NCBI GenBank assembly: GCA_019096065.1
Contig: JAGUCH010000002.1
Location: 12,474,501-12,538,500 of the forward strand
DNA length: 64,000 nucleotides
Reading direction: 5' to 3'
From: Paracyclopina nana
Taxonomy: Eukaryota; Arthropoda; Copepoda; Cyclopoida; Cyclopettidae
Part shown: one piece after another, positions 1 to 57,272 of the stretch
Numbering within the stretch: position 1 is the stretch's first letter
How the letters are laid out: each line of letters opens with the position of its first letter
Notes under the pieces: model-generated
Told to the model about the DNA's origin: nothing
Databases searched by the model: none
What the model saw: the letters and a program-made list of their open reading frames with translations, nothing else
Program-made: the position numbers and the translations under genes

Positions 1-8
1 AACCTTAC

Positions 9-350
9 CTGGAGTGCAGATAACCAAGGTTATGCCAGGCCCAGAGCACAAAACATCAGAATGGGGGTCATGATTGTTGCATGATCTATTTTGGGGCTTG
101 AACCAAGCTCCATTCTCAGCTTCAAAACAAAACTCATCTGGGCTAACTATCCAGCTAGACCATCCACCATTTCTAGCCATAGTACCTTGTGTGCAGTGAA
201 CAAAGGCTTCACTTGGGCCTGCACACAGGCCTCCATATTTGGGTGCTGGATTGGTACAGGTTCTGTTTTTGGATTTGACCCAAGAGCTGTTTTCAGATTC
301 AAAACAAGACTCATCCAGACTAACAGTCCAGCTGGACCATCCACCAGGAA
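9..350 (-). CDS. Fused two-domain TSP1 exon (chimeric B/C plus C-like)
   Basis: A 342-bp exon encodes two TSP1 domains with no intron between them. The first starts like B (ESCFESENSSW, PKYGG) and ends like C (CAGPSEA). The second is C-like but diverged (WSSWIVSPDE, NNHDPHSD). Between them only about 18 nt of the old C-A intron start remain, read in frame as G-T-M-A-R-N; a 14-nt intron would be too short to splice. The exon ends at a GTAAGG donor at positions 1-8, so the gene continues beyond the window. Confidence 0.7.
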
Positions 351-3300
351 CTGAAAAATGGCTTGAGGTTGGCCAGGCTGAAACAAACAAGCTTGGATAG
401 GCAATGGTACCTGGTGTGCACTGAACCAGCTCTTGGCTGGGCCCACTGCAATCCTGGCCACCATAGAGTGGAGTGGGACTGTTGCAGGTTCTGTTTTTGG
501 CCTTGACCCAGGTGCTACTGTCCTCAGATTCCATGCAGAGCTCATCTGAGCTCACAGTCCAGTTGGACCATCCACCTGCAACTGAAGAGCCCAACAATTA
601 GGTCTGGAATGAGCTAGGGATGCCATGCTACTGGCATTTCTGGACACAGTACCTGGTGTGCATTTAAGCAAGGCTTCGCTTGGGCCTGCACACTGGCCGC
701 CATAAAGAGGCGCTGGATTGTTGCATGTTCTGTTTTGGGGTTTGAGCCAAGTTCCATTCTCTGCCTCAAAACACAACTCATCTGGGCTCACTGTCCAGCC
801 GGACCATCCACCGGGAACTGAAAATTGAGGCCTTCATGCAGAAGCAATTGCACTGCAACTACTTCTAAGAATGTTACTTGGTGTGCACACAACCAACTCT
901 GTGCTTTGCCCCACACACTGGCCTCCATATTTGGGTGCAGGATTGGTACAGGTTCTGTTTTTGGATTTGACCCAGGAGCTGTTTTCAGATTCAAAACAAG
1001 ACTCATCCAGACTAACAGTCCAGCTGGACCATCCACCAGGAACTGAAAATGGCTTGAGGTTGGCCAGGCTGAAACAAACAAGCTTGGATAGGCAATGGTA
1101 CCTGGTGTGCACTGAACCAGCTCTTGGCTGGGCCCACTGCAATCCTGGCCACCATAGAGTGGAGTGGGACTGTTGCAGGTTCTGTTTTTGGCCTTGACCC
1201 AGGTGCTACTGTCCTCAGATTCCATGCAGAGCTCATCTGAGCTCACAGTCCAGTTGGACCATCCACCTGCAACTGAAGAGCCCAACAATTAGGTCTGGAA
1301 TGAGCCAGGGATGCCATGCTACTGGCATTTCTGGACACAGTACCTGGTGTGCATTTAAGCAAGGCTTCGCTTGGGCCTGCACACTGGCCGCCATAAAGAG
1401 GCGCTGGATTGTTGCATGTTCTGTTTTGGGGTTTGAGCCAAGTTCCATTCTCTGCCTCAAAACACAACTCATCTGGGCTCACTGTCCAGCCGGACCATCC
1501 ACCGGGAACTGAAAATTGAGGCCTTCATGCAGAAGCAATTGCACTGCAACTACTACTAAGAATGTTACTTGGTGTGCACAACACCAACCCTGTGCTTTGC
1601 CCCACACACTGGCCTCCATATTTGGGTGCAGGATTGGTACAGGTTCTGTTTTTGGATTTGACCCAGGAGCTGTTTTCAGATTCAAAACAAGACTCATCCA
1701 GACTAACAGTCCAGCTGGACCATCCACCAGGAACTGAAAAATGGCTTGAGGTTGGCCAGGCTGAAACAAACAAGCTTGGATAGGCAATGGTACCTGGTGT
1801 GCACTGAACCAGCTCTTGGCTGGGCCCACTGCAATCCTGGCCACCATAGAGTGGAGTGGGACTGTTGCAGGTTCTGTTTTTGGCCTTGACCCAGGTGCTA
1901 CTGTCCTCAGATTCCATGCAGAGCTCATCTGAGCTCACAGTCCAGTTGGACCATCCACCTGCAACTGAAGAGCCCAACAATTAGGTCTGGAATGAGCCAG
2001 GGATGCCATGCTACTGGCATTTCTGGACACAGTACCTGGTGTGCATTTAAGCAAGGCTTCGCTTGGGCCTGCACACTGGCCGCCATAAAGAGGCGCTGGA
2101 TTGTTGCATGTTCTGTTTTGGGGTTTGAGCCAAGTTTCATTCTCTGCTTCAAAACACAACTCATCTGGGCTCACTGTCCAGCCGGACCATCCACCGGGAA
2201 CTGAAAATTGAGGCCTTCATGCAGAAGCAATTGCACTGCAACTACTTCTAAGAATGTTACTTGGTGTGCACACAACCAACACTGTGCTTTGCCCCACGCA
2301 CTGGCCTCCATATTTGGGTGCAGGATTGGTACAGGTTCTGTTTTTGGATTTGACCCAGGAGCTGTTTTCAGATTCAAAACAAGACTCATCCAGACTAACA
2401 GTCCAGCTGGACCATCCACCAGGAACTGAAAAATGGCTTGAGGTTGGCCAGGCTGAAACAAACAAGCTTGGATAGGCAATGGTACCTGGTGTGCACTGAA
2501 CCAGCTCTTGGCTGGGCCCACTGCAATCCTGGCCACCATAGAGTGGAGTGGGACTGTTGCAGGTTCTGTTTTTGGCCTTGACCCAGGTGCTACTGTCCTC
2601 AGATTCTATGCATAGGTCATCTGAGCTCACAGTCCAGCTGGACCATCCACCTGCAACTGTAAACAATGCAACAATAATGCTTATAATTAGAAAGTTTTGT
2701 ATCATTAATTTACTTGGTGTGCACTGAATCAGTTCTCTATCGTAGCCATCACATTCATCTCCACCATACTTTGGAGCTGGATTGTTGCAGGTTCTGTTTT
2801 GGAATTTCACCCAAGTGTTTTCATTTGACTGTTTGCATTGTTCATCTGGTTCTTCAATCCAGCTTGACCATCCTCCTTGAACTAAAAAAAAGTTTTCTGG
2901 TGTGCAGAAGGACTCTTTGAGTTGCATGCAGCTGTCTGAAATATTTCGCTACTATATTTGAATATTCCCGCTCTTTATATTTTCCCTCCCTCTCATTAAA
3001 CTCGTCAGCTTCAGCTGAATAAAAAGTCAGTTACGTTCCACCTTTCCAATCAACAAGTTGTTCACGAGATTTATTCTTCGGTTACAAACTTATACAAAAG
3101 TATTACTTCGTAAAGTCATCAGCAATTTTCTCCAAGGACTAGTATCCGGGTAGCAAATTGCTTACATGGCGCCCAACGGATTGCAGGCAAGAACAAAACT
3201 TTCTGTAACCTTGGGTGTAAGAATACGCCTCGAAAGGCAGTAGCTCTTTGGGCTTGAATTCAGAGGCCGGCTTTGCAACCCTCTGGCTCAAGCTAACAGT

Positions 3301-6300
3301 GACTGGACAACCTTTGGCTTCGACGGCCCTCAAACGAGTGAATTCCCTCGGCATCGGCATAAGCAAATCCCGAGGCTTCGGATCTCCGCAAGCGCCGGCT
3401 TCCCAAGGGACCCAGCACTATTTCCAGCATCCTTGATAACGGCATAAGAAAACACGCTCAAAAAAGCGGAGTCGAAATCCCGTTTGAAAAGGAAGCAAAA
3501 ACCACGTGGCAAACTAAGACTGAGACGACCTTCAGACAAGTGAAATCCCACGGCTTTCTAACGTTCCCGTGGCATAAGATCTTGCCTTTCGTCATCGAAA
3601 CTCAGATTCCACCTGGCATATGACCTTCAGACGAGCAAAATCCTCGGCTTTCTAACGTTCCCGTGGAATAGAGCTCTGAATTCGTCATTCCTTCTTGTAA
3701 GTTGACTCAAAAGTCAATTTTTTTTCTTCTTTCCAGTTCAAAAGAACTAATCCTTTTCTATTTACAGGTCCAACAGGACCAGTGAACCCCACCCAGACGT
3801 TCCTAAGGCCAAAAGACCCGAAAGGACGTCTAACTCTTTTGTCTATCCTATTCCGGAGCGACTCGAAAGCCAATCCGGATTCATCACTTCTTACACCCAG
3901 TCAAAACTGTAGCTGTTTAAGAACAATAAAAGAGCAGCTCTTCATTATTACTTGGTGTGCATTGCACTAGTTCTTTGGTCATGCCAATACATTCTCCACC
4001 ATATAATGGCTCAGGATTGTCACATGTCCTGTTTTTTGTTTTGACCCAGGTGCTGTTATTGTTTTGAAAACACATCTCATCTGGACTCACTGTCCAATTT
4101 GACCATCCTCCTTGAACTGAGAATAATAAAATGTGTAGATTGGTATTGTGTGAAACACTCAAGAGCCAATGATTTAAGGCACCTGGTTGGCATTCTCTTT
4201 GGCAGATGTAGTGATATGAATCTTGGCAATAATTGTCAGCAATGACAATTGTATCATTTTTTGCTGCTTCGCTTTGAGGAGCATGCCTCAAAGAGCTACA
4301 TCCAAATCCGCTGCTTTGATTTATTGCCACATCCGCATTGTATACCATTGAAAATTCTCCTGGAGTCCAGCTTTTTCTTGGATTATCAACCCAAAACAAA
4401 TGACCAGTTGTTGTTTTTATGGCCAGTCCAATGTAGGCAGTTTGGAACCAAAGTTCACGATTTGCAAAAGTAACTTGGAATTTGGTTTTGTAATAGTCCA
4501 AAATCTCTTTCAAGTCTTCTGCATTGTCTGCTTGTGCTAGTCTAGCTCCAAAACTAGCACATGATGCTAATGCACCTTGATAGTTTTCCTCTCCTTCAAA
4601 GGCTCGATAAACATACTTTGACCCAGGATTCACACCATCAAACTCATTTTGTCCACATTCTAAGAAAAGCAAATTAATTGGCTGAACATGAATTCAAACT
4701 TTCAGACTTTAACCACTACCAAATACTTAAAAACAGAGTTTAAGTTAAAACAGATAATTCTCAAAACTTATTTAAAGGTCTTTAAATCACTTAGCACTTT
4801 TTTGCATTATGTAAATTAGCTTCACAACATTTATTTTTTTTTTCATATAGCTTAGTAGCACAAAAATAACAAACAAGTTGACACCTGCTGCTAATTTGTT
4901 GAAAGAGAAATTATCTGGCTTTGGAAAAGTTAATCTAGTCTTAAGATAGCTTGTCTAATTTTAATTGTATTTCAATACAACAACTCAACTTTAAGTAAGA
5001 TTCTGTTCTGCCATTTCAAGGTGCAATCTGTAGCTAATCTGAAAAGCACAGTGGGACTTACCAAACAAAATCTTGAAAAATTGTGCTTTGGGCCGAATCA
5101 GTATGATAATTGAAATGAAAAATGTTTCTCACAAATTTTCTAATAACAAATAATGGGTCTTTAGAAAACCCACCTTTTATGCAATGTCTGGCAATTAAAT
5201 TAATTGAAACACTCAATGAAGGTCATTGGACAAAACCCATGGAACATCAAAGCTAACATCTGAGAATTCTGAAATGCTTGGCATGAGCTTAGATTAGTCC
5301 CACAAAGTGGGGTCAGATGGCTCTAGTTGCTTTCCAAAACACATCTGTTTGCGGGCTTTTTGGAATCAAACAGCCTATTGCTGTGTCTGTAAACAATTAA
5401 AACAAGTGCAGTTCCATCTGGATATCATTCGGCATTAATCAAAGCTTGAGGCAATCATTGCAGAATTGATTAGAATGATTTCTTTGGTGTATTGTAGAGC
5501 TTTTCAGCCAAAACAGTTTCATTCTCATATAAAGACCGGTTTCCAGCAGCTGGTTTGGGTGACTTCTAGGCAACTACTAGAGTCCAAATTTGCCTTTAAA
5601 AAGGGGATTTGTCTTGGATGATGCCTTCCATTGAAAAAACGCCAAACCAACCATTTCATCCTATTATCAGGCAGCTATAACTTTCATGGAAAACCAAATG
5701 CAATTGAGATATTTCAAAAAAAGTTCATATGACACCATTATAGGTATGACAATCAATCAAAATTTGGCATGGAAGTTTACAGAATCTAGAGTTATGAAAA
5801 TAAATTAATGCTCCATAAATTTCCCAATTTTTTTATGATGCACGAAAGCAGCATTTTAACTACTGTGCGCTGATAGGACCAAAAAGCTAAATAATGACAA
5901 TAGAAATCAGCAAAAAATTGTTCAAAAATTGATCTTCATTTGCATTTGCATTTTGTCATGATAAACATTCTGACTAAGCATTGCAGGAATAATCCTGCAT
6001 TGAACAATTTAACTTAAGAAATATGAAAAATGGCCAGAAATAATGACATTGTTGACAAACAGAATCTTCACATAAAAGCAATCAAAATCATTTACCAGGA
6101 GTGCAAAGGACGAGCTGAATGCTGTGCCCAACACAACCTCCCCCAAACATTGGGGATGGATTGCTACAATTTCTAATTTTGGTCTTCACCATTGTTTTGC
6201 TTTCAGATTCAAAACAATCATTGTCTGAGCTAAGTGTCCACTCAGACCAACCCCCGGGAACTGAAAAATAGAGCATGGGTATGGTTACTCACCTACCAAG

Positions 6301-9300
6301 AAAATAAACAGAACCATAATCTTGACAAAAATGATCTAGAAGAATGTAAGTAGGACAACATATTGAAATTAGATTATTAAAACATTTTACATTAACATAA
6401 AAACTAACAATGCCATGGAAAAGCTTCTGACAAAAAAATGCAGGGAGCAGCCCTGAAATCACAATAACTCAAAATTTAGGAGAAAAAAGATGGTTTTTGC
6501 CAAGCATCTCAGCATAACAGGAATTCTGCAAGCATTAGACATTGTTAAAGAAGGAGCAACAATTACACTTATAATGCAAAACTTGGAATACTGCAGCTAC
6601 TTCTCAAAATATTACTTGGTGTGCACACAACCAACTCTGTGCTTTGCCCCACACACTGGCCTCCATATTTGGGTGCAGGATTGGTACAGGTTCTGTTTTT
6701 GGATTTGACCCAGGAGCTGTTTTCAGATTCAAAACAAGACTCATCCAGACTAACAGTCCAGCTGGACCATCCACCAGGAACTGAAAAATGGCTTGAGGTT
6801 GGCCAGGCTGAAACAAACAAGCTTGGATAGGCAATGGTACCTGGTGTGCACTGAACCAGCTCTTGGCTGGGCCCACTGCAATCCTGGCCACCATAGAGTG
6901 GAGTGGGACTGTTGCAGGTTCTGTTTTTGGCCTTGACCCAGGTGCTACTGTCCTCAGATTCCATGCAGAGCTCATCTGAGCTCACAGTCCAGTTGGACCA
7001 TCCACCTGCAACTGAAGAGCCCAACAATTAGGTCTGGAATGAGCTAGGGATGCCATGCTACTGGCATTTCTGGACACAGTACCTGGTGTGCATTTAAGCA
7101 AGGCTTCGCTTGGGCCTGCACACTGGCCGCCATAAAGAGGCGCTGGATTGTTGCATGTTCTGTTTTGGGGTTTGAGCCAAGTTCCATTCTCTGCCTCAAA
7201 ACACAACTCATCTGGGCTCACTGTCCAGCCGGACCATCCACCGGGAACTGAAAATTGAGGCCTTCATGCAGAAGCAATTGCACTGCAACTACTTCTAAGA
7301 ATGTTACTTGGTGTGCACACAACCAACTCTGTGCTTTGCCCCACACACTGGCCTCCATATTTGGGTGCAGGATTGGTACAGGTTCTGTTTTTGGATTTGA
7401 CCCAGGAGCTGTTTTCAGATTCAAAACAAGACTCATCCAGACTAACAGTCCAGCTGGACCATCCACCAGGAACTGAAAAATGGCTTGAGGTTGGCCAGGC
7501 TGAAACAAACAAGCTTGGATAGGCAATGGTACCTGGTGTGCACTGAACCAGCTCTTGGCTGGGCCCACTGCAATCCTGGCCACCATAGAGTGGAGTGGGA
7601 CTGTTGCAGGTTCTGTTTTTGGCCTTGACCCAGGTGCTACTGTCCTCAGATTCCATGCAGAGCTCATCTGAGCTCACAGTCCAGTTGGACCATCCACCTG
7701 CAACTGAAGAGCCCAACAATTAGGTCTGGAATGAGCCAGGGATGCCATGCTACTGGCATTTCTGGACACAGTACCTGGTGTGCATTTAAGCAAGGCTTCG
7801 CTTGGGCCTGCACACTGGCCGCCATAAAGAGGCGCTGGATTGTTGCATGTTCTGTTTTGGGGTTTGAGCCAAGTTCCATTCTCTGCCTCAAAACACAACT
7901 CATCTGGGCTCACTGTCCAGCCGGACCATCCACCGGGAACTGAAAATTGAGGCCTTCATGCAGAAGCAATTGCACTGCAACTACTACTAAGAATGTTACT
8001 TGGTGTGCACACAACCAACTCTGTGCTTTGCCCCACACACTGGCCTCCATATTTGGGTGCAGGATTGGTACAGGTTCTGTTTTTGGATTTGACCCAGGAG
8101 CTGTTTTCAGATTCAAAACAAGACTCATCCAGACTAACAGTCCAGCTGGACCATCCACCAGGAACTGAAAAATGGCTTGAGGTTGGCCAGGCTGAAACAA
8201 ACAAGCTTGGATAGGCAATGGTACCTGGTGTGCACTGAACCAGCTCTTGGCTGGGCCCACTGCAATCCTGGCCACCATAGAGTGGAGTGGGACTGTTGCA
8301 GGTTCTGTTTTTGGTCTTGACCCAGGTGCTACTGTCCTCAGATTCCATGCATAGGTCATCTGAGCTCACAGTCCAGTTGGACCATCCACCTGCAACTGTA
8401 AACAATGCAACAATAATGCTTAGAATTAGAAAGTTTTGTATCATTAATTTACTTGGTGTGCACTGAATCAGTTCTCTATCGTAGCCATCACATTCATCTC
8501 CACCATACTTTGGAGCTGGATTGTTGCAGGTTCTGTTTTGGAATTTCACCCAATTGTTTTCATTTGACTGTTTGCATTGTTCATCTGGTTCTTCAATCCA
8601 GCTTGACCATCCTCCTTGAACTAAAAAAAAGTTTTCTGGTGTGCAGAAGGACTCTGAGTTGCATGCAGCTCTTCATTATTACTTGGTGTGCATTGCACTA
8701 GTTCTTCGGTCATGCCAATACATTCTCCACCATATAATGGCTCAGGATTGTCACATGTCCTGTTTTTTGTTTTGACCCAGGTGCTGTTATTGTTTTGAAA
8801 ACACATCTCATCTGGACTCACTGTCCAATTTGACCATCCTCCTTGAACTGAGAATAATAAAATGTGTAGATTGGTATTGTGTGAAACACTCAAGAGCCAA
8901 TGATTTAAGGCACCTGGTTGGCATTCTCTTTGGCAGATGTAGTGATATGAATCTTGGCAATAATTGTCAGCAATGACAATTGTATCATTTTTTGCTGCTT
9001 CGCTTTGAGGAGCATGCCTCAAAGAGCTACATCCAAATCCGCTGCTTTGATTTATTGCCACATCCGCATTGTATACCATTGAAAATTCTCCTGGAGTCCA
9101 GCTTTTTCTTGGATTATCAACCCAAAACAAATGACCAGTTGTTGTTTTTATGGCCAGTCCAATGTAGGCAGTTTGGAACCAAAGTTCACCATTTGCAAAA
9201 GTAACTTGGAATTTGGTTTTGTAATAGTCCAAAATCTCTTTCAAGTCTTCTGCATTGTCTGCTTGTGCTAGTCTAGCTCCAAAACTAGCACATGATGCTA

Positions 9301-21300: not shown

Positions 21301-24300
21301 GGCTTTGGAAAAGTTAATCTAGTCTTAAGATAGCTTGTCTAATTTTAATTGTATTTCAATACAACAACTCAACTTTAAGTAAGATTCTGTTCTGCCATTT
21401 CAAGGTGCAATCTGTAGCTAATCTGAAAAGCACAGTGGGACTTACCAAACAAAATCTTGAAAAATTGTGCTTTGGGCCGAATCAGTATGATAATTGAAAT
21501 GAAAAATGTTTCTCACAAATTTTCTAATAACAAATAATGGGTCTTTAGAAAACCCACCTTTTATGCAATGTCTGGCAATTAAATTAATTGAAACACTCAA
21601 TGAAGGTCATTGGACAAAACCCATGGAACATCAAAGCTAACATCTGAGAATTCTGAAATGCTTGGCATGAGCTTAGATTAGTCCCACAAAGTGGGGTCAG
21701 ATGGCTCTAGTTGCTTTCCAAAACACATCTGTTTGCGGGGCTTTTTGGAATCAAACAGCCTATTGCTGTGTCTGTAAACAATTAAAACAAGTGCAGTTCC
21801 ATCTGGATATCATTCGGCATTAATCAAAGCTTGAGGCAATCATTGCAGAATTGATTAGAATGATTTCTTTGGTGTATTGTAGAGCTTTTCAGCCAAAACA
21901 GTTTCATTCTCATATAAAGACCGGTTTCCAGCAGCTGGTTTGGGTGACTTCTAGGCAACTACTAGAGTCCAAATTTGCCTTTAAAAAGGGGATTTGTCTT
22001 GGATGATGCCTTCCATTGAAAAAACGCCAAACCAACCATTTCATCCTATTATCAGGCAGCTATAACTTTCATGGAAAACCAAATGCAATTGAGATATTTC
22101 AAAAAAAGTTCATATGACACCATTATAGGTATGACAATCAATCAAAATTTGGCATGGAAGTTTACAGAATCTAGAGTTATGAAAATAAATTAATGCTCCA
22201 TAAATTTCCCAATTTTTTTATGATGCACGAAAGCAGCATTTTAACTACTGTGCGCTGATAGGACCAAAAAGCTAAATAATGACAATAGAAATCAGCAAAA
22301 AATTGTTCAAAAATTGATCTTCATTTGCATTTGCATTTTGTCATGATAAACATTCTGACTAAGCATTGCAGGAATAATCCTGCATTGAACAATTTAACTT
22401 AAGAAATATGAAAAATGGCCAGAAATAATGACATTGTTGACAAACAGAATCTTCACATAAAAGCAATCAAAATCATTTACCAGGAGTGCAAAGGACGAGC
22501 TGAATGCTGTGCCCAACACAACCTCCCCCAAACATTGGGGATGGATTGCTACAATTTCTAATTTTGGTCTTCACCATTGTTTTGCTTTCAGATTCAAAAC
22601 AATCATTGTCTGAGCTAAGTGTCCACTCAGACCAACCCCCGGGAACTGAAAAATAGAGCATGGGTATGGTTACTCACCTACCAAGAAAATAAACAGAACC
22701 ATAATCTTGACAAAAATGATCTAGAAGAATGTAAGTAGGACAACATATTGAAATTAGATTATTAAAACATTTTACATTAACATAAAAACTAACAATGCCA
22801 TGGAAAAGCTTCTGACAAAAAAATGCAGGGAGCAGCCCTGAAATCACAATAACTCAAAATTTAGGAGAAAAAAGATGGTTTTTGCCAAGCATCTCAGCAT
22901 AACAGGAATTCTGCAAGCATTAGACATTGTTAAAGAAGGAGCAACAATTACACTTATAATGCAAAACTTGGAATACTGCAGCTACTTCTCAAAATATTAC
23001 TTGGTGTGCACACAACCAACTCTGTGCTTTGCCCCACACACTGGCCTCCATATTTGGGTGCAGGATTGGTACAGGTTCTGTTTTTGGATTTGACCCAGGA
23101 GCTGTTTTCAGATTCAAAACAAGACTCATCCAGACTAACAGTCCAGCTGGACCATCCACCAGGAACTGAAAAATGGCTTGAGGTTGGCCAGGCTGAAACA
23201 AACAAGCTTGGATAGGCAATGGTACCTGGTGTGCACTGAACCAGCTCTTGGCTGGGCCCACTGCAATCCTGGCCACCATAGAGTGGAGTGGGACTGTTGC
23301 AGGTTCTGTTTTTGGCCTTGACCCAGGTGCTACTGTCCTCAGATTCCATGCAGAGCTCATCTGAGCTCACAGTCCAGTTGGACCATCCACCTGCAACTGA
23401 AGAGCCCAACAATTAGGTCTGGAATGAGCTAGGGATGCCATGCTACTGGCATTTCTGGACACAGTACCTGGTGTGCATTTAAGCAAGGCTTCGCTTGGGC
23501 CTGCACACTGGCCGCCATAAAGAGGCGCTGGATTGTTGCATGTTCTGTTTTGGGGTTTGAGCCAAGTTCCATTCTCTGCCTCAAAACACAACTCATCTGG
23601 GCTCACTGTCCAGCCGGACCATCCACCGGGAACTGAAAATTGAGGCCTTCATGCAGAAGCAATTGCACTGCAACTACTTCTAAGAATGTTACTTGGTGTG
23701 CACACAACCAACTCTGTGCTTTGCCCCACACACTGGCCTCCATATTTGGGTGCAGGATTGGTACAGGTTCTGTTTTTGGATTTGACCCAGGAGCTGTTTT
23801 CAGATTCAAAACAAGACTCATCCAGACTAACAGTCCAGCTGGACCATCCACCAGGAACTGAAAAATGGCTTGAGGTTGGCCAGGCTGAAACAAACAAGCT
23901 TGGATAGGCAATGGTACCTGGTGTGCACTGAACCAGCTCTTGGCTGGGCCCACTGCAATCCTGGCCACCATAGAGTGGAGTGGGACTGTTGCAGGTTCTG
24001 TTTTTGGCCTTGACCCAGGTGCTACTGTCCTCAGATTCCATGCAGAGCTCATCTGAGCTCACAGTCCAGTTGGACCATCCACCTGCAACTGAAGAGCCCA
24101 ACAATTAGGTCTGGAATGAGCTAGGGATGCCATTCTACTGGCATTTCTAAACACAGTACCTGGTGTGCATTTAAGCAAGGCTTTGCTTGGGCCTGCACAC
24201 TGGCCGCCATAAAGAGGCGCTGGATTGTTGCATGTTCTGTTTTGGGGTTTGAGCCAAGTTCCATTCTCTGCCTCAAAACACAACTCATCTGGGCTCACTG

Positions 24301-27300
24301 TCCAGCCGGACCATCCACCGGGAACTGAAAATTGAGGCCTTCATGCAGAAGCAATTGCACTGCAACTACTTCTAAGAATGTTACTTGGTGTGCACACAAC
24401 CAACTCTGTGCTTTGCCCCACACACTGGCCTCCATATTTGGGTGCAGGATTGGTACAGGTTCTGTTTTTGGATTTGACCCAGGAGCTGTTTTCAGATTCA
24501 AAACAAGACTCATCCAGACTAACAGTCCAGCTGGACCATCCACCAGGAACTGAAAAATGGCTTGAGGTTGGCCAGGCTGAAACAAACAAGCTTGGATAGG
24601 CAATGGTACCTGGTGTGCACTGAACCAGCTCTTGGCTGGGCCCACTGCAATCCTGGCCACCATAGAGTGGAGTGGGACTGTTGCAGGTTCTGTTTTTGGC
24701 CTTGACCCAGGTGCTACTGTCCTCAGATTCCATGCAGAGCTCATCTGAGCTCACAGTCCAGTTGGACCATCCACCTGCAACTGAAGAGCCCTACAATTAG
24801 GTCTGGAATGAGCCAGGGATGCCATTCTACTGGCATTTCTAAACACAGTACCTGGTGTGCATTTAAGCAAGGCTTCGCTTGGGCCTGCACACTGGCCGCC
24901 ATAAAGAGGCGCTGGATTGTTGCATGTTCTGTTTTGGGGTTTGAGCCAAGTTCCATTCTCTGCCTCAAAACACAACTCATCTGGGCTCACTGTCCAGCCG
25001 GACCATCCACCGGGAACTGAAAATTGAGGCCTTCATGCAGAAGCAATTGCACTGCAACTACTTCTAAGAATGTTACTTGGTGTGCACACAACCAACTCTG
25101 TGCTTTGCCCCACACACTGGCCTCCATATTTGGGTGCAGGATTGGTACAGGTTCTGTTTTTGGATTTGACCCAAGAGCTGTTTTCAGATTCAAAACAAGA
25201 CTCATCCAGACTAACAGTCCAGCTGGACCATCCACCAGGAACTGAAAAATGGCTTGAGGTTGGCCAGGCTGAAACAAACAAGCTTGGATAGGCAATGGTA
25301 CCTGGTGTGCACTGAACCAGCTCTTGGCTGGGCCCACTGCAATCCTGGCCACCATAGAGTGGAGTGGGACTGTTGCAGGTTCTGTTTTTGGCCTTGACCC
25401 AGGTGCTACTGTCCTCAGATTCCATGCAGAGCTCATCTGAGCTCACAGTCCAGTTGGACCATCCACCTGCAACTGAAGAGCCCAACAATTAGGTCTGGAA
25501 TGAGCCAGGGATGCCATGCTACTGGCATTTCTGGACACAGTACCTGGTGTGCATTTAAGCAAGGCTTCGCTTGGGCCTGCACACTGGCCGCCATAAAGAG
25601 GCGCTGGATTGTTGCATGTTCTGTTTTGGGGTTTGAGCCAAGTTCCATTCTCTGCCTCAAAACACAACTCATCTGGGCTCACTGTCCAGCCGGACCATCC
25701 ACCGGGAACTGAAAATTGAGGCCTTCATGCAGAAGCAATTGCACTGCAACTACTTCTAAGAATGTTACTTAGTGTGCACACAACCAACTCTGTGCTTTGC
25801 CCCACACACTGGCCTCCATATTTGGGTGCAGGATTGGTACAGGTTCTGTTTTTGGATTTGACCCAGGAGCTGTTTTCAGATTCAAAACAAGACTCATCCA
25901 GACTAACAGTCCAGCTGGACCATCCACCAGGAACTGAAAAATGGCTTGAGGTTGGCCAGGCTGAAACAAACAAGCTTGGATAGGCAATGGTACCTGGTGT
26001 GCACTGAACCAGCTCTTGGCTGGGCCCACTGCAATCCTGGCCACCATAGAGTGGAGTGGGACTGTTGCAGGTTCTGTTTTTGGCCTTGACCCAGGTGCTA
26101 CTGTCCTCAGATTCCATGCAGAGCTCATCTGAGCTCACAGTCCAGTTGGACCATCCACCTGCAACTGAAGAGCCCAACAATTAGGTCTGGAATGAGCCAG
26201 TGATGCCATGCTACTGGCATTTCTGGACACAGTACCTGGTGTGCATTTAAGCAAGGCTTCGCTTGGGCCTGCACACTGGCCGCCATAAAGAGGCGCTGGA
26301 TTGTTGCATGTTCTGTTTTGGGGTTTGAGCCAAGTTCCATTCTCTGCCTCAAAACACAACTCATCTGGGCTCACTGTCCAGCCGGACCATCCACCGGGAA
26401 CTGAAAATTGAGGCCTTCATGCAGAAGCAATTGCACTGCAACTACTTCTAAGAATGTTACTTGGTGTGCACACAACCAACTCTGTGCTTTGCCCCACACA
26501 CTGGCCTCCATATTTGGGTGCAGGATTGGTACAGGTTCTGTTTTTGGATTTGACCCAGGAGCTGTTTTCAGATTCAAAACAAGACTCATCCAGACTAACA
26601 GTCCAGCTGGACCATCCACCAGGAACTGAAAAATGGCTTGAGGTTGGCCAGGCTGAAACAAACAAGCTTGGATAGGCAATGGTACCTGGTGTGCACTGAA
26701 CCAGCTCTTGGCTGGGCCCACTGCAATCCTGGCCACCATAGAGTGGAGTGGGACTGTTGCAGGTTCTGTTTTTGGCCTTGACCCAGGTGCTACTGTCCTC
26801 AGATTCCATGCAGAGCTCATCTGAGCTCACAGTCCAGTTGGACCATCCACCTGCAACTGAAGAGCCCAACAATTAGGTCTGGAATGAGCCAGTGATGCCA
26901 TGCTACTGGCGTTTCTGGACACAGTACCTGGTGTGCATTTAAGCAAGGCTTCGCTTGGGCCTGCACACTGGCCGCCATAAAGAGGCGCTGGATTGTTGCA
27001 TGTTCTGTTTTGGGGTTTGAGCCAAGTTCCATTCTCTGCCTCAAAACACAACTCATCTGGGCTCACTGTCCAGCCGGACCATCCACCGGGAACTGAAAAT
27101 TGAGGCCTTCATGCAGAAGCAATTGCACTGCAACTACTTCTAAGAATGTTACTTGGTGTGCACACAACCAACTCTGTGCTTTGCCCCACACACTGGCCTC
27201 CATATTTGGGTGCAGGATTGGTACAGGTTCTGTTTTTGGATTTGACCCAGGAGCTGTTTTCAGATTCAAAACAAGACTCATCCAGACTAACAGTCCAGCT

Positions 27301-30300
27301 GGACCATCCACCAGGAACTGAAAAATGGCTTGAGGTTGGCCAGGCTGAAACAAACAAGCTTGGATAGGCAATGGTACCTGGTGTGCACTGAACCAGCTCT
27401 TGGCTGGGCCCACTGCAATCCTGGCCACCATAGAGTGGAGTGGGACTGTTGCAGGTTCTGTTTTTGGCCTTGACCCAGGTGCTACTGTCCTCAGATTCCA
27501 TGCAGAGCTCATCTGAACTCACAGTCCAGTTGGACCATCCACCTGCAACTGAAGAGCCCAACAATTAGGTCTGGAATGAGCCAGTGATGCCATGCTACTG
27601 GCATTTCTGGACACAGTACCTGGTGTGCATTTAAGCAAGGCTTCGCTTGGGCCTGCACACTGGCCGCCATAAAGAGGCGCTGGATTGTTGCATGTTCTGT
27701 TTTGGGGTTTGAGCCAAGTTCCATTCTCTGCCTCAAAACACAACTCATCTGGGCTCACTGTCCAGCCGGACCATCCACCGGGAACTGAAAATTGAGGCCT
27801 TCATGCAGAAGCAATTGCACTGCAACTACTACTAAGAATGTTACTTGGTGTGCACACAACCAACTCTGTGCTTTGCCCCACACACTGGCCTCCATATTTG
27901 GGTGCAGGATTGGTACAGGTTCTGTTTTTGGATTTGACCCAGGAGCTGTTTTCAGATTCAAAACAAGACTCATCCAGACTAACAGTCCAGCTGGACCATC
28001 CACCAGGAACTGAAAAATGGCTTGAGGTTGGCCAGGCTGAAACAAACAAGCTTGGATAGGCAATGGTACCTGGTGTGCACTGAACCAGCTCTTGGCTGGG
28101 CCCACTGCAATCCTGGCCACCATAGAGTGGAGTGGGACTGTTGCAGGTTCTGTTTTTGGCCTTGACCCAGGTGCTACTGTCCTCAGATTCCATGCAGAGC
28201 TCATCTGAGCTCACAGTCCAGTTGGACCATCCACCTGCAACTGAAGAGCCCAACAATTAGGTCTGGAATGAGCCAGTGATGCCATGCTACTGGCATTTCT
28301 GGACACAGTACCTGGTGTGCATTTAAGCAAGGCTTCGCTTGGGCCTGCACACTGGCCGCCATAAAGAGGCGCTGGATTGTTGCATGTTCTGTTTTGGGGT
28401 TTGAGCCAAGTTCCATTCTCTGCCTCAAAACACAACTCATCTGGGCTCACTGTCCAGCCGGACCATCCACCGGGAACTGAAAATTGAGGCCTTCATGCAG
28501 AAGCAATTGCACTGCAACTACTACTAAGAATGTTACTTGGTGTGCACACAACCAACTCTGTGCTTTGCCCCACACACTGGCCTCCATATTTGGGTGCAGG
28601 ATTGGTACAGGTTCTGTTTTTGGATTTGACCCAGGAGCTGTTTTCAGATTCAAAACAAGACTCATCCAGACTAACAGTCCAGCTGGACCATCCACCAGGA
28701 ACTGAAAAATGGCTTGAGGTTGGCCAGGCTGAAACAAACAAGCTTGGATAGGCAATGGTACCTGGTGTGCACTGAACCAGCTCTTGGCTGGGCCCACTGC
28801 AATCCTGGCCACCATAGAGTGGAGTGGGACTGTTGCAGGTTCTGTTTTTGGCCTTGACCCAGGTGCTACTGTCCTCAGATTCCATGCAGAGCTCATCTGA
28901 GCTCACAGTCCAGTTGGACCATCCACCTGCAACTGAAGAGCCCAACAATTAGGTCTGGAATGAGCCAGTGATGCCATGCTACTGGCATTTCTGGACACAG
29001 TACCTGGTGTGCATTTAAGCAAGGCTTCGCTTGGGCCTGCACACTGGCCGCCATAAAGAGGCGCTGGATTGTTGCATGTTCTGTTTTGGGGTTTGAGCCA
29101 AGTTCCATTCTCTGCCTCAAAACACAACTCATCTGGGCTCACTGTCCAGCCGGACCATCCACCAGGAACTGAAAATTGAGGCCTTCATACAGAAGCAATT
29201 GCACTGCAACTACTTCTAAGAATGTTACTTGGTGTGCACACAACCAACTCTGTGCTTTGCCCCACACACTGGCCTCCATATTTGGGTGCAGGATTGGTAC
29301 AGGTTCTGTTTTTGGATTTGACCCAGGAGCTGTTTTCAGATTCAAAACAAGACTCATCCAGACTAACAGTCCAGCTGGACCATCCACCAGGAACTGAAAA
29401 ATGGCTTGAGGTTGGCCAGGCTGAAACAAACAAGCTTGGATAGGCAATGGTACCTGGTGTGCACTGAACCAGCTCTTGGCTGGGCCCACTGCAATCCTGG
29501 CCACCATAGAGTGGAGTGGGACTGTTGCAGGTTCTGTTTTTGGCCTTGACCCAGGTGCTACTGTCCTCAGATTCCATGCAGAGCTCATCTGAGCTCACAG
29601 TCCAGTTGGACCATCCACCTGCAACTGAAGAGCCCAACAATTAGGTCTGGAATGAGCCAGTGATGCCATGCTACTGGCATTTCTGGACACAGTACCTGGT
29701 GTGCATTTAAGCAAGGCTTCGCTTGGGCCTGCACACTGGCCGCCATAAAGAGGCGCTGGATTGTTGCATGTTCTGTTTTGGGGTTTGAGCCAAGTTCCAT
29801 TCTCTGCCTCAAAACACAACTCATCTGGGCTCACTGTCCAGCCGGACCATCCACCAGGAACTGAAAATTGAGGCCTTCATACAGAAGCAATTGCACTGCA
29901 ACTACTTCTAAGAATGTTACTTGGTGTGCACACAACCAACTCTGTGCTTTGCCCCACACACTGGCCTCCATATTTGGGTGCAGGATTGGTACAGGTTCTG
30001 TTTTTGGATTTGACCCAGGAGCTGTTTTCAGATTCAAAACAAGACTCATCCAGACTAACAGTCCAGCTGGACCATCCACCAGGAACTGAAAAATGGCTTG
30101 AGGTTGGCCAGGCTGAAACAAACAAGCTTGGATAGGCAATGGTACCTGGTGTGCACTGAACCAGCTCTTGGCTGGGCCCACTGCAATCCTGGCCACCATA
30201 GAGTGGAGTGGGACTGTTGCAGGTTCTGTTTTTGGCCTTGACCCAGGTGCTACTGTCCTCAGATTCCATGCAGAGCTCATCTGAGCTCACAGTCCAGTTG

Positions 30301-32257
30301 GACCATCCACCTGCAACTGAAGAGCCCAACAATTAGGTCTGGAATGAGCCAGTGATGCCATGCTACTGGCATTTCTGGACACAGTACCTGGTGTGCATTT
30401 AAGCAAGGCTTCGCTTGGGCCTGCACACTGGCCGCCATAAAGAGGCGCTGGATTGTTGCATGTTCTGTTTTGGGGTTTGAGCCAAGTTCCATTCTCTGCC
30501 TCAAAACACAACTCATCTGGGCTCACTGTCCAGCCGGACCATCCACCGGGAACTGAAAATTGAGGCCTTCATGCAGAAGCAATTGCACTGCAACTACTAC
30601 TAAGAATGTTACTTGGTGTGCACACAACCAACTCTGTGCTTTGCCCCACACACTGGCCTCCATATTTGGGTGCAGGATTGGTACAGGTTCTGTTTTTGGA
30701 TTTGACCCAGGAGCTGTTTTCAGATTCAAAACAAGACTCATCCAGACTAACAGTCCAGCTCGACCATCCACCCAAAGCTTCATATTAAGTATTTTCATGG
30801 GTTATCTTTGTCTGTGTGATATGTGTTTGTTTTACTTGGGGTGCATTGAATGTGTTCCTCTGTCAATCCTTTGCATTCTAGTCCTCCATATAGTGGTTCT
30901 GGATTGTTGCATTCTCGCTTTTTTGTTTTCATCCATGTATTTCCATCTCCTTTAATGCACTGGTCATCTGCACTGATTGTCCATTGTGACCATGCTCCGT
31001 CAACTGCAAAAATTCCTTATAATTTTTTTTGTTTTTTTACTGGTGGGGCTATGCAGGAATTGTGGTATATGCAATTTAGTCTATGTTTCAAGTTGCTACA
31101 GGTATATTTCGAAATGCTCTTGCCTTGTGGGCAAACTTCCTCTTGCTTATTTTCTATTGTGGGGTTGCACATGATTCCATCATTGTCAGGTGACCATTCG
31201 TTGTAGCATTCTTTTGATCTTGATCTGATCCATAAGCTGTCCTGGGGTTTACATTCACTCCATGTTGACCAGTCACCATAGTTACCCATGTCTGAAACGT
31301 ATTAAATGCGCAAATATACTGTGGAACCCGTTAATGAAGAACGATGTTTACATTTTTTGTATGGGTTGAATTTACATTCCCTTTGACAAATGTAATAGAA
31401 ATTGTAGCTGCAATGATTGGCTTCAAACTTTATTCCATCATTTGCCCCTGCAGTCTCTCCAGGAGCATATTTAAGTCGGCCGCATGCATATCCACCCGAC
31501 CGATCAATTAACATATCTGTATTGAATGTATTGCGAAATGCATTTGGATACCACTGAGTGTTTGGCTTATCCTCCCAATATAAACGACGTGTGCTCGTTC
31601 TCTTTATGCCTAACCCAATCATTGCTTGATTATACCATAAGCCACCATTGCCTGTTTTTATCTCATATCTTAATTTATAGAAGTCCATTATTTCTTTGAA
31701 ATCCTCAGCGTTTTCTGCTTGAGCCAATCTTGCCCCAAAATTAGCACAAGATGTTACAGCACCGTCATAGTTTTTCTTTGTATCAACAAAGGCTCTGTAG
31801 ACATACTTTGAACCAGGATTCACGCCCTCAAACTGATTCTGACTACATTCTGAAAAATATAGGACATTCTGCTTAAAAACATCCAATGATAGGAAATAAA
31901 TAAAAAATAATTCCAATTAGTGGAGACTGCTTGTGAAATCTCTCGTTACCATCATAGAAATCGTCCGTGCACTCGTATTTCCTGCAATAATCCCATGTGT
32001 CCTCTGCTGTGTAGCACCACGATTTATTGTGGGCATAGTCATGTTTGCAGTTGCTTTCTGGTGCACTTCCATAGGAAACACCTCCAAAGCTAAATTGTGC
32101 TTTACATTCTATCCCATTTTCAGTTAAACCTGTAATCGACCAAATTCGTGCAAATTAAGATCTCCCATTCATTATATCTATACTTACACACGCTCGCCAC
32201 AGGTGTCCATTCAAGATTTATTGCAAGGCTTACAAGTACTCCCAATGACCATGCCAT
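9..32257 (-). CDS. Giant secreted TSP1/C-type-lectin mosaic protein (3' part beyond window)
   Basis: This appears to be one gene of about 108 exons in view. The order is signal peptide, FN2-like domain, CTLD, 37 TSP1 domains, CTLD, 41 TSP1, CTLD, 11 TSP1, CTLD, 14 TSP1, then past the left edge. The exons sum to 19,363 bp, about 6,454 codons, ending in phase 1 at position 9. Every junction examined is phase 1: TSP1 exons end in one base of a codon and the next exon supplies two. The TSP1 domains carry a WSxW motif, four cysteines and an N-R-T-C sequon, so a glycosylated extracellular protein is expected. No promoter, signal-peptide exon or FN2-like exon was found before the three internal CTLDs, which favours a single gene. 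Separate genes, or alternative ends after the last exon of each block, remain possible. Function is unknown; adhesion, matrix or immune recognition are guesses from the domain types. Confidence 0.7.
411..2425 (-). repeat. Array IV: C-A-B TSP1 units continuing to the left edge
   Basis: Exons: B 2261-2425, C 2036-2200, A 1794-1964, B 1569-1733, C 1344-1508, A 1102-1272, B 878-1042, C 653-817, A 411-581, followed by the fused exon at 9-350. One A-B intron (1043-1101) is 59 nt instead of 60. The run degenerates toward the left edge, where the unit becomes chimeric. Confidence 0.88.
2486..2881 (-). CDS. Block IV TSP1 exons E and A'
   Basis: E 2714-2881 (168 bp) and A' 2486-2656 (171 bp) lie on the 3' side of the insertion and are open and phase 1-1. 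A' here reads WSSWTVSSDDLCIES, slightly different from the other A' copies (WSNW, DDLCMES). Confidence 0.75.
2934..3939. mobile_element. 1.0-kb insertion, possible LTR-retroelement-derived fragment
   Basis: The D-E intron of block IV is interrupted by about 1,000 bp absent from the same intron in blocks II and III. GCAGCT occurs at both ends (2928-2933 and 3934-3939) and once in the empty copies, consistent with a 6-bp target duplication. On the plus strand the first ~233 bp contain a TATA-like stretch and an AATAAA, then end in CA directly before TGGCGCCCAACG (3167-3178), a primer-binding-site-like motif. This suggests an LTR-type element. I recognise no matching LTR at the other end and no gag or pol genes, so it would be an incomplete or non-autonomous (TRIM-like) fossil. 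It is younger than the block duplication. Family assignment is weak. Confidence 0.45.
3952..4116 (-). CDS. Block IV TSP1 exon D
   Basis: This 165-bp D exon follows CTLD-4. It differs from the other D copies by a Glu-to-Lys change (GMTKEL rather than GMTEEL). Its downstream intron is enlarged by the 1.0-kb insertion at 2934-3939. Confidence 0.75.
4183..4659 (-). CDS. Fourth C-type lectin domain (CTLD-4)
   Basis: A 477-bp CTLD exon differing from CTLD-2 and CTLD-3 by a Gly-to-Arg change (FANRELWF rather than FANGELWF). Splice sites and phase are the same. It heads block IV, which runs out of the window on the left. Confidence 0.85.
4660..6095 (-). other. 1,436-nt inter-block intron (copy 3)
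   Basis: Third copy of the inter-block intron, one base shorter than the others. No coding sequence or promoter was recognised. Confidence 0.7.
6096..6260 (-). CDS. F-type TSP1 exon closing block III
   Basis: Third copy of the F exon (165 bp, phase 1-1), with the 355-nt intron 6261-6615 upstream and a GTAAAT donor downstream. It matches the other two copies. Confidence 0.75.
6616..8164 (-). repeat. Array III: B plus 2 C-A-B TSP1 units
   Basis: Exons in order of transcription: B 8000-8164, C 7775-7939, A 7533-7703, B 7308-7472, C 7083-7247, A 6841-7011, B 6616-6780. These are the same units as in arrays I and II but only two full copies, so array length varies strongly between otherwise identical blocks. 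Confidence 0.9.
8225..8847 (-). CDS. Block III leading TSP1 exons D, E and A'
   Basis: D 8683-8847, E 8453-8620 and A' 8225-8395 are near-identical to the block II set. The D-E intron is two bases shorter than in block II, one of very few differences between the module copies. Confidence 0.8.
8914..9390 (-). CDS. Third C-type lectin domain (CTLD-3)
   Basis: A 477-bp CTLD exon whose translation appears the same as CTLD-2 from CGQNEFDG to CQRECQP. It has phase 1 boundaries, a TTTTCTTAG acceptor and a GTGCCT donor. It heads the shortest block, which has only two complete C-A-B units. Confidence 0.85.
9391..10827 (-). other. 1,437-nt inter-block intron (copy 2)
   Basis: Non-coding AT-rich DNA, essentially the same as 21044-22480. 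Nothing else was recognised in it. A TATAAAG near 10260 is on the plus strand and points away from the gene. Confidence 0.7.
10828..10992 (-). CDS. F-type TSP1 exon closing block II
   Basis: The 165-bp F exon matches 22481-22645. It is preceded by the same 355-nt intron (10993-11347) and followed by a GTAAAT donor. It carries WSEWTLSS and four cysteines. Confidence 0.75.
11348..19815 (-). repeat. Array II: B plus 12 tandem C-A-B TSP1 units
   Basis: This is the longest run in the window. A first B exon (19651-19815) is followed by C exons starting at 19426, 18734, 18042, 17350, 16658, 15966, 15275, 14583, 13891, 13199, 12507 and 11815. Unit length is 692 bp except for one single-base loss in a C-A intron near 15930. 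All 37 exons stay open. Shared private variants spaced 3,459 bp apart reveal a five-unit higher-order repeat inside the run (see findings). The domains encode about 2,060 residues. Confidence 0.9.
19876..20500 (-). CDS. Block II leading TSP1 exons D, E and A'
   Basis: Three exons: D 20336-20500 (165 bp, WSNWTVSPDE, NNNSTW), E 20104-20271 (168 bp, WSSWIEEPDE, GGDEC) and A' 19876-20046 (171 bp, DDLC in place of DELC). They follow the CTLD in blocks II, III and IV and are distinct from the 692-bp unit except for A', which starts the array proper. All splice phases are 1. Confidence 0.8.
20567..21043 (-). CDS. Second C-type lectin domain (CTLD-2)
   Basis: A 477-bp phase 1-1 exon encodes a full CTLD beginning CGQNEFDGVNPGSKYVYRAF and ending YHYICQRECQP. 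The region where WND would be expected reads IADNYC, and the long-loop motif is FWVDNP, so canonical calcium/sugar ligands are incomplete. No ATG-led hydrophobic segment precedes it, which supports its being an internal exon. It is nearly identical to CTLD-3 and CTLD-4. Confidence 0.85.
21044..22480 (-). other. 1,437-nt inter-block intron (copy 1)
   Basis: AT-rich sequence between the F exon and CTLD-2. I see no exon, signal peptide or coding stretch in it on either strand. It is almost base-for-base the same as 9391-10827 and 4660-6095, so it was copied together with the flanking exons. It ends in a TTTTCTTAG acceptor directly before the CTLD. Confidence 0.7.
22481..22645 (-). CDS. F-type TSP1 exon closing block I
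   Basis: A 165-bp phase 1-1 exon with WSEWTLSS, four cysteines and a MFGGGC motif instead of YGG. It is separated from the last B exon by a 355-nt intron and from the next CTLD exon by 1,437 nt. The donor is GTAAATGA; reading through it gives a stop two codons later, so intron retention would make a short alternative end. Near-identical copies close blocks II and III. Confidence 0.75.
23001..30552 (-). repeat. Array I: 11 tandem C-A-B TSP1 units (692 bp each)
   Basis: Eleven complete units without any change in length: C exons start at 30388, 29696, 29004 and so on in exact 692-bp steps to 23468. Each unit is C (165 bp), 71-nt intron, A (171 bp), 60-nt intron, B (165 bp), 60-nt intron. Core motifs are GGWSGWTVSPDE (C), GGWSNWTVSSDE (A) and GGWSSWTVSLDE (B), followed by KNRTC or QNRTC and YGG. 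All exons remain open with intact GT/AG sites. Seven consecutive units at about 26.2-30.4 kb share a single-base variant in the C-A intron, showing local homogenisation. The 33 TSP1 domains here account for about 1,840 residues. Confidence 0.9.
30613..30777 (-). CDS. First B-type TSP1 exon of block I
   Basis: This 165-bp exon is near-identical to the array B exons over its body. Its upstream edge differs: the acceptor is ATATGAAG with a poor pyrimidine tract, and the first residues are T-L-G-G-W instead of V-P-G-G-W. Homology to the repeat unit ends at this exon, so this is the left-hand (5') boundary of array I. Confidence 0.7.
30836..31003 (-). CDS. Exon 5: divergent TSP1 domain
   Basis: A 168-bp phase 1-1 exon has WSQWTIS, the usual KKRECNNPEP core and a YGG...C...IQCTP end, so four cysteines. 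It lies between the GC-donor exon and the first B-type array exon. Its acceptor is TTTTTGCAG and its donor GTAAAAC. It is not part of the 692-bp repeat and looks like an older relative of the amplified domains. Confidence 0.75.
31124..31291 (-). CDS. Exon 4: divergent TSP1 domain with a GC donor
   Basis: This 168-bp exon encodes a TSP1-like domain with WSTWSEC, RSRSKEC and EEVCPQ motifs, more similar to classical TSP1 modules than the amplified domains. The homologous splice position (Cys-x-x-G) reads CAAG followed by gcaaga, implying a GC-AG intron; that is the only donor found that restores phase 1 at the expected place. The alternative GT donors either break phase or cut the domain differently. 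Confidence 0.6.
31376..31849 (-). CDS. Exon 3: first C-type lectin domain (CTLD-1)
   Basis: A 474-bp phase 1-1 exon encodes one complete CTLD. It starts at CSQNQFEG and runs through YVYRAF, ARLAQAENAEDF and WYNQAMIGLGIK to the terminal YYICQRE. The positions of WVxxP/EPN- and WND-type calcium ligands do not carry the canonical sugar-binding residues, so calcium-dependent sugar binding is doubtful. It is clearly related to, but diverged from, the three internal CTLDs, which are nearly identical to one another. Its donor is GTAAAT, immediately after the codon for E in QRE. Confidence 0.85.
31950..32129 (-). CDS. Exon 2: fibronectin type II-like domain
   Basis: A 180-bp phase 1-1 exon encodes about 60 residues with the pattern FSFGGVSYG, then C, then WCYT, then WDYC and a final C before an acidic tail. 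The F-x-F-G-x-x-Y and WC...W-x-YC spacing resembles fibronectin type II (collagen-binding) modules, but the match is by eye and the cysteine spacing is not fully canonical. The exon occurs once; the downstream blocks lack it. Flanks are a GTAACG donor and a TTACAG acceptor. Confidence 0.5.
32188..32257 (-). CDS. Exon 1: start codon and signal peptide of the TSP1/CTLD gene
   Basis: The first coding exon is 70 bp and begins MAWSLGVLVSLAINLEW, a short hydrophobic stretch ending in a small-residue region (PVASV) that suits signal-peptidase cleavage. It ends in phase 1 before a strong GTAAGTAT donor. A pyrimidine-rich stretch ending in CAG lies just upstream of the ATG, so a 5' untranslated exon may precede it. 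This is the only signal-peptide-like exon found in the whole repeat region. Confidence 0.7.
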
Positions 32258-41542: not shown

Positions 41543-41606
41543 TTTAAATGACAATTAAAAGCAATGATATTTTCTATGATCTAATGTGACTTATATACAC
41601 AATTAT

Positions 41607-41612
41607 AATAAA
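41607..41612 (+). other. Polyadenylation signal of the SLC36-type gene
   Basis: AATAAA lies 65 bp after the stop codon. Only 317 bp separate it from the next start codon, so the downstream aminopeptidase promoter must be very compact. Confidence 0.5.
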
Positions 41613-41928
41613 GCAACATTAAATGCTATTTTATGCTCCAGTTGAATAAAATGAGCTTAAAAGTGTCTCTTATTGACTTAAAATATCTTAATTTTGGTAA
41701 TTAACTTGATTCCGCTAATACATGAACATTCCAGTTCAATGACTGCAAATGTAATGCGTAAAAGATACCTTTACATTCATTGTAGTAGTTGCTGTATGCA
41801 ACTTGCTCACTCTCTTTACTCATTTTGGCATTTTTCTGTACATAATAGAAACTTGCGGCAATTCTCGCGAAATCACAACAGGACACCAAAACATCAATCA
41901 CTCAAGCAAATTTCCACCACTTAACATC

Positions 41929-44897: not shown

Positions 44898-45022
44898 CTG
44901 TAGTCTACCAAAAATATGAATTATTATTAACAAAAATTATAATTTGTAATTTGCTCAATGTAAAATTATGCTACACTTATTGCACACTGTTGATACGAAT
45001 GAATTTTCTTGCTGAACTCCTC
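44898..45022. other. Short convergent spacer between two stop codons
   Basis: Only 125 bp separate the aminopeptidase stop from the stop of the opposing gene, so their 3' UTRs probably overlap. The sequence is AT-rich with no other feature. Confidence 0.6.
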
Positions 45023-57235: not shown

Positions 57236-57272
57236 TATAAAAAGTCATGGCTGAAAATTCACTGCTTCAGTC
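57236..57272 (+). promoter_or_regulatory. Putative core promoter of p62: TATA box and initiator
   Basis: TATAAAAAG starts at 57236 and an arthropod-type initiator TCAGTC lies at 57267-57272, about 31-33 bp downstream, the standard TATA-to-Inr distance. If used, transcription begins near 57269, after the first ATG of the open frame. Confidence 0.5.

Follow-up and report, generated by a model that had tools for sequence, protein, structure and literature searches.

The minus strand of the left part of the window (the whole 64,000-nucleotide stretch of Paracyclopina nana DNA analysed here) carries a long array of TSP1-type repeat (TSR) and lectin-type domain (CTLD) exons, which we read, on balance, as the 5′ portion of a single, very large gene that probably encodes a giant acidic, secreted modular glycoprotein of structural or adhesive type. 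From position 32257 to the left edge of the window we rebuilt 108 exons encoding 109 modules: a signal-peptide-like exon, a weakly fibronectin-II/kringle-like exon, four CTLD exons and 103 TSR modules. The rebuilt coding sequence of 19,387 bp (6,462 codons) contains no stops, all exon junctions of the array gene are in phase 1, and the gene leaves the window through a phase-1 donor, gtaagg, its 3′ end lying beyond. The preliminary description had proposed an array of TSP1 and lectin exons in phase 1-1, and this was borne out, with 103 TSRs, four CTLDs and an open frame. Its exon sum of 19,363 bp was right as to the consistent frame but not as to length; the shortfall of 24 bp matches an alternative upstream donor of the CTLD1 exon, which was presumably the one used. 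Likewise, its exon list gave the array but left out the Cys-rich module of exon 2 (32129-31950), and its number of about 108 exons stands, but the last two TSRs (350-9) share one exon, so that the modules number 109. For the part within the window, the computed product has a pI of 4.6, a mass of ∼699 kDa unmodified and 205 N-glycosylation sequons. The features of the locus, all on the minus strand, are as follows.

32188..32257, minus: first coding exon, signal-peptide-like as judged by hydrophobicity only, MAWSLGVLVSLAINLEWTPVASV; donor gtaagt, ends in phase 1
31950..32129, minus: exon 2, weakly fibronectin-II/kringle-like Cys module; phase 1-1
31352..31849, minus: CTLD1 exon (Pfam Lectin_C); alternative donor 24 bp upstream
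31124..31291, minus: divergent TSR exon (WSTWSEC); GC-AG donor, or GT donor downstream
30836..31003, minus: TSR unit 1 (motif search)
23001..30777, minus: array 1, 34 TSR exons ordered C-A-B (692-bp higher-order repeat)
22481..22645, minus: TSR unit t8; CTPGK-stop if its donor is read through
20567..21043, minus: CTLD2 exon (Pfam Lectin_C, 23.8 bits)
20104..20500, minus: TSR units t9 and t10 (motif search)
11348..20046, minus: array 2, 38 TSR exons (motif search, repeat analysis)
10828..10992, minus: TSR unit t8, copy 2 (motif search)
8914..9390, minus: CTLD3 exon (block comparison, exon rebuild)
8453..8847, minus: TSR units t9 and t10, copy 2 (motif search)
6616..8395, minus: array 3, 8 TSR exons (motif search, repeat analysis)
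6096..6260, minus: TSR unit t8, copy 3 (motif search)
4183..4659, minus: CTLD4 exon (block comparison, exon rebuild)
3952..4116, minus: TSR unit t9, copy 3 (motif search)
2934..3934, minus: 1001-bp insertion in the t9-t10 intron of the CTLD4 block; 5-bp direct repeat AGCTG
2714..2881, minus: TSR unit t10, copy 3 (motif search)
411..2656, minus: array 4, 10 TSR exons (motif search, repeat analysis)
9..350, minus: fused double-TSR exon, a C/A chimera plus a divergent TSR with no intron between; donor gtaagg

The rebuilt exons are separated by 107 introns, 98 of which are 57-71 bp long; the others measure 100, 120, 355 (three), 1070, 1436 and 1437 (two) bp. In neighbouring genes, the five introns that were examined span 52-61 bp, and two of them have GTAC donors like those of array exons A and B, so that introns as short as those of the array seem ordinary for this organism. 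Array 1 opens with an exon whose acceptor is weak (atgaag). At 31123 on the minus strand, a possible GC-AG intron (AAG/GCAAGA) follows the divergent TSR exon.

TSR exons were identified with a finder that required an AG...GT-bounded, stop-free stretch in phase 1-1, with a length divisible by 3 and a TSR-like motif. This returned 102 exons on the minus strand of positions 1..33000 and none on the plus strand, and in 33001..64000 two on the plus strand and none on the minus strand; ten first-order Markov controls gave 0 exons in nine cases and 1 in the tenth. The divergent exon at 31291-31124 was added as TSR number 103. The two plus-strand matches (around 40.3 and 40.9 kb) fall on an SLC36-like gene, do not look like TSRs on inspection and were dismissed as chance, and the idea that the array exons themselves are chance open reading frames was rejected. 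The C-A-B order is unbroken within the arrays, which indicates that the finder's demands on stops and frame dropped no array unit. AG/GT pairs carrying the motif numbered 247 under phase 1, 28 under phase 2 and 1 under phase 0, and the six phase-2 pairs inspected were type A exons in which a different AG and a different donor had been paired. The uniform phase had been linked to exon shuffling. It mainly reflects tandem duplication and not repeated shuffling, since three exons account, as copies, for 90 of the 103 TSRs and the uniformity is mostly one event copied; the exon phases amount to about a dozen exon kinds copied many times, as opposed to some 108 independent observations.

All 103 TSRs contain exactly four cysteines, against the six conserved cysteines expected of a TSP1/TSR domain, and all 103 contain WxxW (102 of them having been found by a pattern that requires W..W). 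In 102 of the 103 the spacing from the second Trp through the four Cys residues is 8, 16-17, 11-12 and 10, the divergent exon at 31291-31124 having 3, 15, 13 and 12. In TSR2 of thrombospondin-1 the canonical C1, C3, C4 and C5 are spaced by 15, 12 and 10, and alignment of the TSR triplet with thrombospondin-1 also places the first Cys on C1. Together, the spacing and the alignment indicate that C2 and C6 are the residues missing from the array TSRs; the alternative that the first cysteine is the missing one was dropped after comparison of the Cys spacing. In thrombospondin TSRs C2 and C6 pair with each other. The array TSRs thus seem to have lost one whole disulfide while keeping C1-C5 and C3-C4. 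The motif CSx(S/T)CG, an O-fucose site, does not occur in the array TSRs.

The identity proposed earlier for both module types is supported by Pfam, PDB sequence and fold matches, and the profile check gave a mixed outcome: Lectin_C matched CTLD1 and CTLD2, and TSP_1 (PF00090) was passed by a six-unit TSR stretch but by none of seven single TSR units. Two of these seven scored 17 and 15.3 bits against the cut-off of 21.6 bits and five had no TSP_1 match; models other than TSP_1, among them PAS_11 and DUF4121, were also matched by single units below threshold. The six-unit stretch reached 44.1 bits for TSP_1 as a whole (cut-off 21.6), no individual segment within it falling below E 0.01, and it also passed the TRM13 zinc-finger model, a match that we take as spurious. 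When the TSR triplet was compared with the PDB, thrombospondin-1 was matched at E 6e-10 and properdin was also among the sequence matches. An AlphaFold model of unit B, built with 12 sequences from the window, had a pLDDT of 84 and a pTM of 0.55, and in a Foldseek search ranks 1-8 were occupied by thrombospondin-1, UNC5 and properdin with a probability of at least 0.97, at modest E-values (best 0.02, none ≤0.001). The array units are accordingly predicted to have a TSR-like fold. NCBIfam gave no match, and a search of viral contigs for relatives of the TSR triplet gave no pattern match.

Both CTLDs that were tested against Pfam, CTLD1 and CTLD2, pass Lectin_C (PF00059) narrowly, at 23.8 bits against a cut-off of 22.6. 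The motifs EPN or QPD and WND, which bind Ca and sugar, define only the sugar-binding members of the C-type lectins; none of EPN, QPD and WND was found in any of the four CTLDs, so that these domains do not appear to be canonical sugar-binding lectins and sugar binding by them is doubtful. AlphaFold modelling of CTLD2 gave a pLDDT of 33 and no usable fold, a profile of the CTLD pair had no match in the PDB at E≤0.01, and none of 26 pattern matches to CTLD2 in prokaryote genomes was confirmed by tblastn. Exon 2 weakly resembles the end of a kringle or of the FN2 domain of MMP2: a phmmer search of the PDB gave apolipoprotein(a) kringles and an MMP2 fragment at weak E-values of 0.11-0.16, and no Pfam family was matched at E≤1.

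Tandem Repeats Finder reported four arrays with a period of 225 bp. The true repeat unit, however, is a 692-bp triplet, C-A-B, with exons of 165, 165 and 171 bp and introns of 60, 71 and 60 bp, and the arrays contain 34, 38, 8 and at least 10 TSRs. Twenty-five of the 27 complete triplets are 692 bp long and two are 691 bp, both 1-bp deletions falling in introns. The 25 triplets of 692 bp differ pairwise at 4.1 sites on average (maximum 11), and all of them lie within 6 sites of the consensus. The arrays nevertheless have variants of their own: intron variant 200C>A is present in 7 of the 11 type-A units of array 1 as compared to none of the 17 in arrays 2-4, and 203G>A in 2 of 11 as compared to 11 of 17. 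Inverted repeats of at least 150 bp (30-base seeds) were not found, and there was no Rfam match at gathering score.

The blocks containing CTLD2, CTLD3 and CTLD4 are 99.86-99.90% identical across 2.8-3.1 kb, non-coding parts included, and an alignment of blocks 2 and 3 over 3,100 bp shows a single mismatch and a single gap opening; CTLD1 and CTLD2 share 53% protein identity. Positions 6606-15933 match 18257-27586 in register, and 3933-8355 match 8664-13087, but inside the arrays such a register says little because all triplets are alike. Block 4 (CTLD4) has private variants and the 1001-bp insertion, which is absent from the other two near-identical blocks and which we interpret as a transposon-like, mobile element inserted in this block only. 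The insertion (2934-3934) holds an AATAAA. The identity of the blocks reflects recent unequal exchange or, in part, assembly error, and the pattern of block and array variants fits unequal crossing-over inside the arrays. Size change by recombination, which had been put forward before, is therefore a likely process, given the near-identical blocks and the array-specific variants.

The same near-identity raises the question whether block and unit numbers are artefacts, a smaller array having been expanded or haplotypes joined during assembly, while the gene itself is real. The arrays exceed the length of short sequencing reads, and the minimal difference between blocks 2 and 3 fits such an error; the arrays, however, differ in length, in the intron variants 200C>A and 203G>A and in private exon variants, and the insertion is confined to block 4, which makes this explanation quite unlikely. 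That the array is a decayed, untranscribed pseudogene amplified like a satellite would agree with the satellite-like homogeneity of the 692-bp repeat. We consider this extremely improbable: the 103 TSR and four CTLD modules contain no stops or frameshifts, their order is unbroken, and the two 1-bp deletions among 27 triplets are both intronic. In addition, among 36 pairs of old TSR paralogues the 23 with finite dS gave dN/dS values of 0.14-0.54, well below 1 (the other 13 were saturated in dS and hence gave no ratio), and CTLD1/CTLD2 gave 0.28. Recent triplet variants comprise 12 nonsynonymous changes on 392 sites, 8 synonymous on 109 and 10 in 191 intron bases, the coding classes differing at a weak binomial p of 0.05 with units that are not independent. 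The dN/dS values below 1, together with the intronic position of both deletions, indicate that the array is coding and not a fossil, with purifying selection among the old paralogues.

The three 1.4-kb gaps before CTLD2-4 bear on whether the blocks belong to one gene. In favour of each CTLD-TSR block being a gene of its own, ending at t8 with the next one starting near its CTLD, read-through of the t8 donor meets a stop two codons later (CTPGK) and each gap contains one AATAAA and one ATTAAA. The AATAAA, however, lies ∼1.26 kb past t8 and only ∼175 bp before the CTLD exon, which leaves little space for a promoter and a first exon; the t8 donor (ggtaaat) and the CTLD acceptor (tttcttag) are both present and both in phase 1. 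A scan for start-like exons that recovers the real signal-peptide exon found none in the three gaps (it was run without a background control and could miss one), and blastn revealed no match there, at the DNA level, to the signal-peptide or FN2-like exon. A family of tandem genes therefore appears unlikely; since no start-like exon was detected between blocks, one gene is favoured over separate genes per block, and one transcript spanning all blocks is likely judging from the DNA. As to function, CTLD and TSR modules are both found in immune proteins, and properdin, a TSR protein of complement, is among the sequence and fold matches, so that a secreted or haemolymph immune lectin or opsonin of variable length, with repeats for avidity, could be envisaged. 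We give this recognition role a low probability, as the variation consists of copy number, with 25 of the 25 692-bp triplets at most 6 sites from the consensus, and the CTLD2-4 blocks are nearly identical, unlike diversified recognition.

The view that any whole internal exon could be skipped without loss of frame holds, all junctions being in phase 1, and alternative splicing of the array is no more than a possibility. Retention of the 71-bp A-B intron would cause a frameshift, and the C-A intron contains an in-frame stop. The 60-bp B-C intron, on the other hand, can be read through without a stop or a change of frame, and use of its inner TTTCAG acceptor would add 9 residues. Thus at 30086-30145 and in other B-C introns (minus strand) retention or an alternative acceptor would keep the frame, unlike in the other two array introns.

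Genes surrounding the array were assigned with Pfam as BCAS3-like (minus strand), M1 aminopeptidase, FBA-domain, claudin-like, SQSTM1-like (PB1-ZZ-UBA) and flotillin, and by reading of translations as SLC36-like and contactin-like (CTLD then Ig). A viral origin of the locus was ruled out by its spliced exons and these animal neighbours. The contactin-like gene (62265-64000, plus strand), which we take to be arthropod-style, runs off the right edge, and its CTLD scores 20.2 bits in Pfam against the cut-off of 22.6. Together with the compact introns, this gene tentatively points to an arthropod, perhaps a crustacean. The SQSTM1/p62-like gene (57241-58788, plus strand; PB1, ZZ and UBA by Pfam) has a tandem 27-bp (9-residue) repeat at 58341-58507. 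On the minus strand, 45026-50620 contains open stretches of 959 and 763 codons in which T, S, P and E are abundant, with runs of T in the second (composition taken from the first 400 residues of each); it perhaps encodes a large extracellular or mucin-like protein.

The array TSRs resemble those of thrombospondin-1 (PDB 3r6b, 1lsl, 7yyk) and of properdin in their GGWSxW start, RxC and NPxPxxGG motifs, in C1, C3, C4 and C5-like spacing, in the TSR-like model and in their tandem arrangement. They differ in having four instead of six Cys, in lacking the CSx(S/T)CG site and, in the array types, the third Trp, and in their far higher copy number and many N-sequons. The thrombospondin family proper is marked by EGF and type 3 repeats at the C terminus, a part that in the array gene would lie beyond the window. 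Matrix proteins with multiple TSRs, such as SCO-spondin, carry many of them in one secreted protein, but these number tens, not more than a hundred, and are not known to be accompanied by CTLDs. In the flatworm Macrostomum lignano, the large repetitive adhesive protein Mlig-ap1 combines a C-type lectin domain with 17 EGF modules, one von Willebrand D domain and KR-rich regions. A second one, Mlig-ap2, contains multiple TSRs together with domains of von Willebrand, trypsin-inhibitor-like and LDL-receptor type; its central part holds 46 repeats, 255 or 221 residues in length, that are described apart from its TSRs (PMC6410801). The extra domain families of these two proteins had no match among the array modules scanned with Pfam, the 3′ end of the gene lying beyond the window. 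Shrimp pmTSP-II is a thrombospondin of the egg extracellular matrix with a deduced size of 110 kDa and an EGF-like domain, and is similar in being a crustacean thrombospondin-named glycoprotein, located in an extracellular egg coat (PMC9106747). The flatworm adhesive proteins and the shrimp egg-coat thrombospondin are the closest precedents found, as analogies and not as memberships. Among the papers listed by a full-text literature search, judged by titles and abstract starts, none described this domain order, and this counts only weakly towards novelty. Each part is a module of a known kind; as far as can be told, the novelty lies in the scale, in the two-disulfide subfamily of TSRs and in a higher-order repeat that is coding.

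The favoured protein would begin with a signal peptide, an FN2/kringle-type Cys module and a CTLD, followed by long TSR rods broken by further CTLDs. One transcript would yield a secreted, glycosylated product with paired disulfides, in which the TSRs may act as stiff, WxxW-bearing, N-glycosylated spacers and the CTLDs as periodic binding heads along the rods. Such a molecule could bridge many ligands in a matrix, an egg coat or an adhesive secretion. The DNA would evolve through unequal crossing-over and conversion between 692-bp C-A-B triplets, and because every unit is in phase 1 at both ends, each exchange would give a longer or shorter protein in frame, so that populations may vary in its length. 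We put forward only tentatively that the locus is a coding higher-order repeat, in which three-exon TSR triplets are homogenised in a satellite-like manner while uniform phase keeps unequal exchange in frame. If true, individuals would differ in the length of a megadalton-class protein made up of CTLDs and two-disulfide TSRs. Splicing would then have to proceed in order across about a hundred introns of 60-71 bp that are almost identical, and the locus would offer a natural setting in which to test how the spliceosome maintains order among dozens of such introns. It would also show coding exons and introns evolving together as a satellite higher-order repeat, in frame and under purifying selection, and such a process may give rise to long adhesive or matrix proteins and to length polymorphism.
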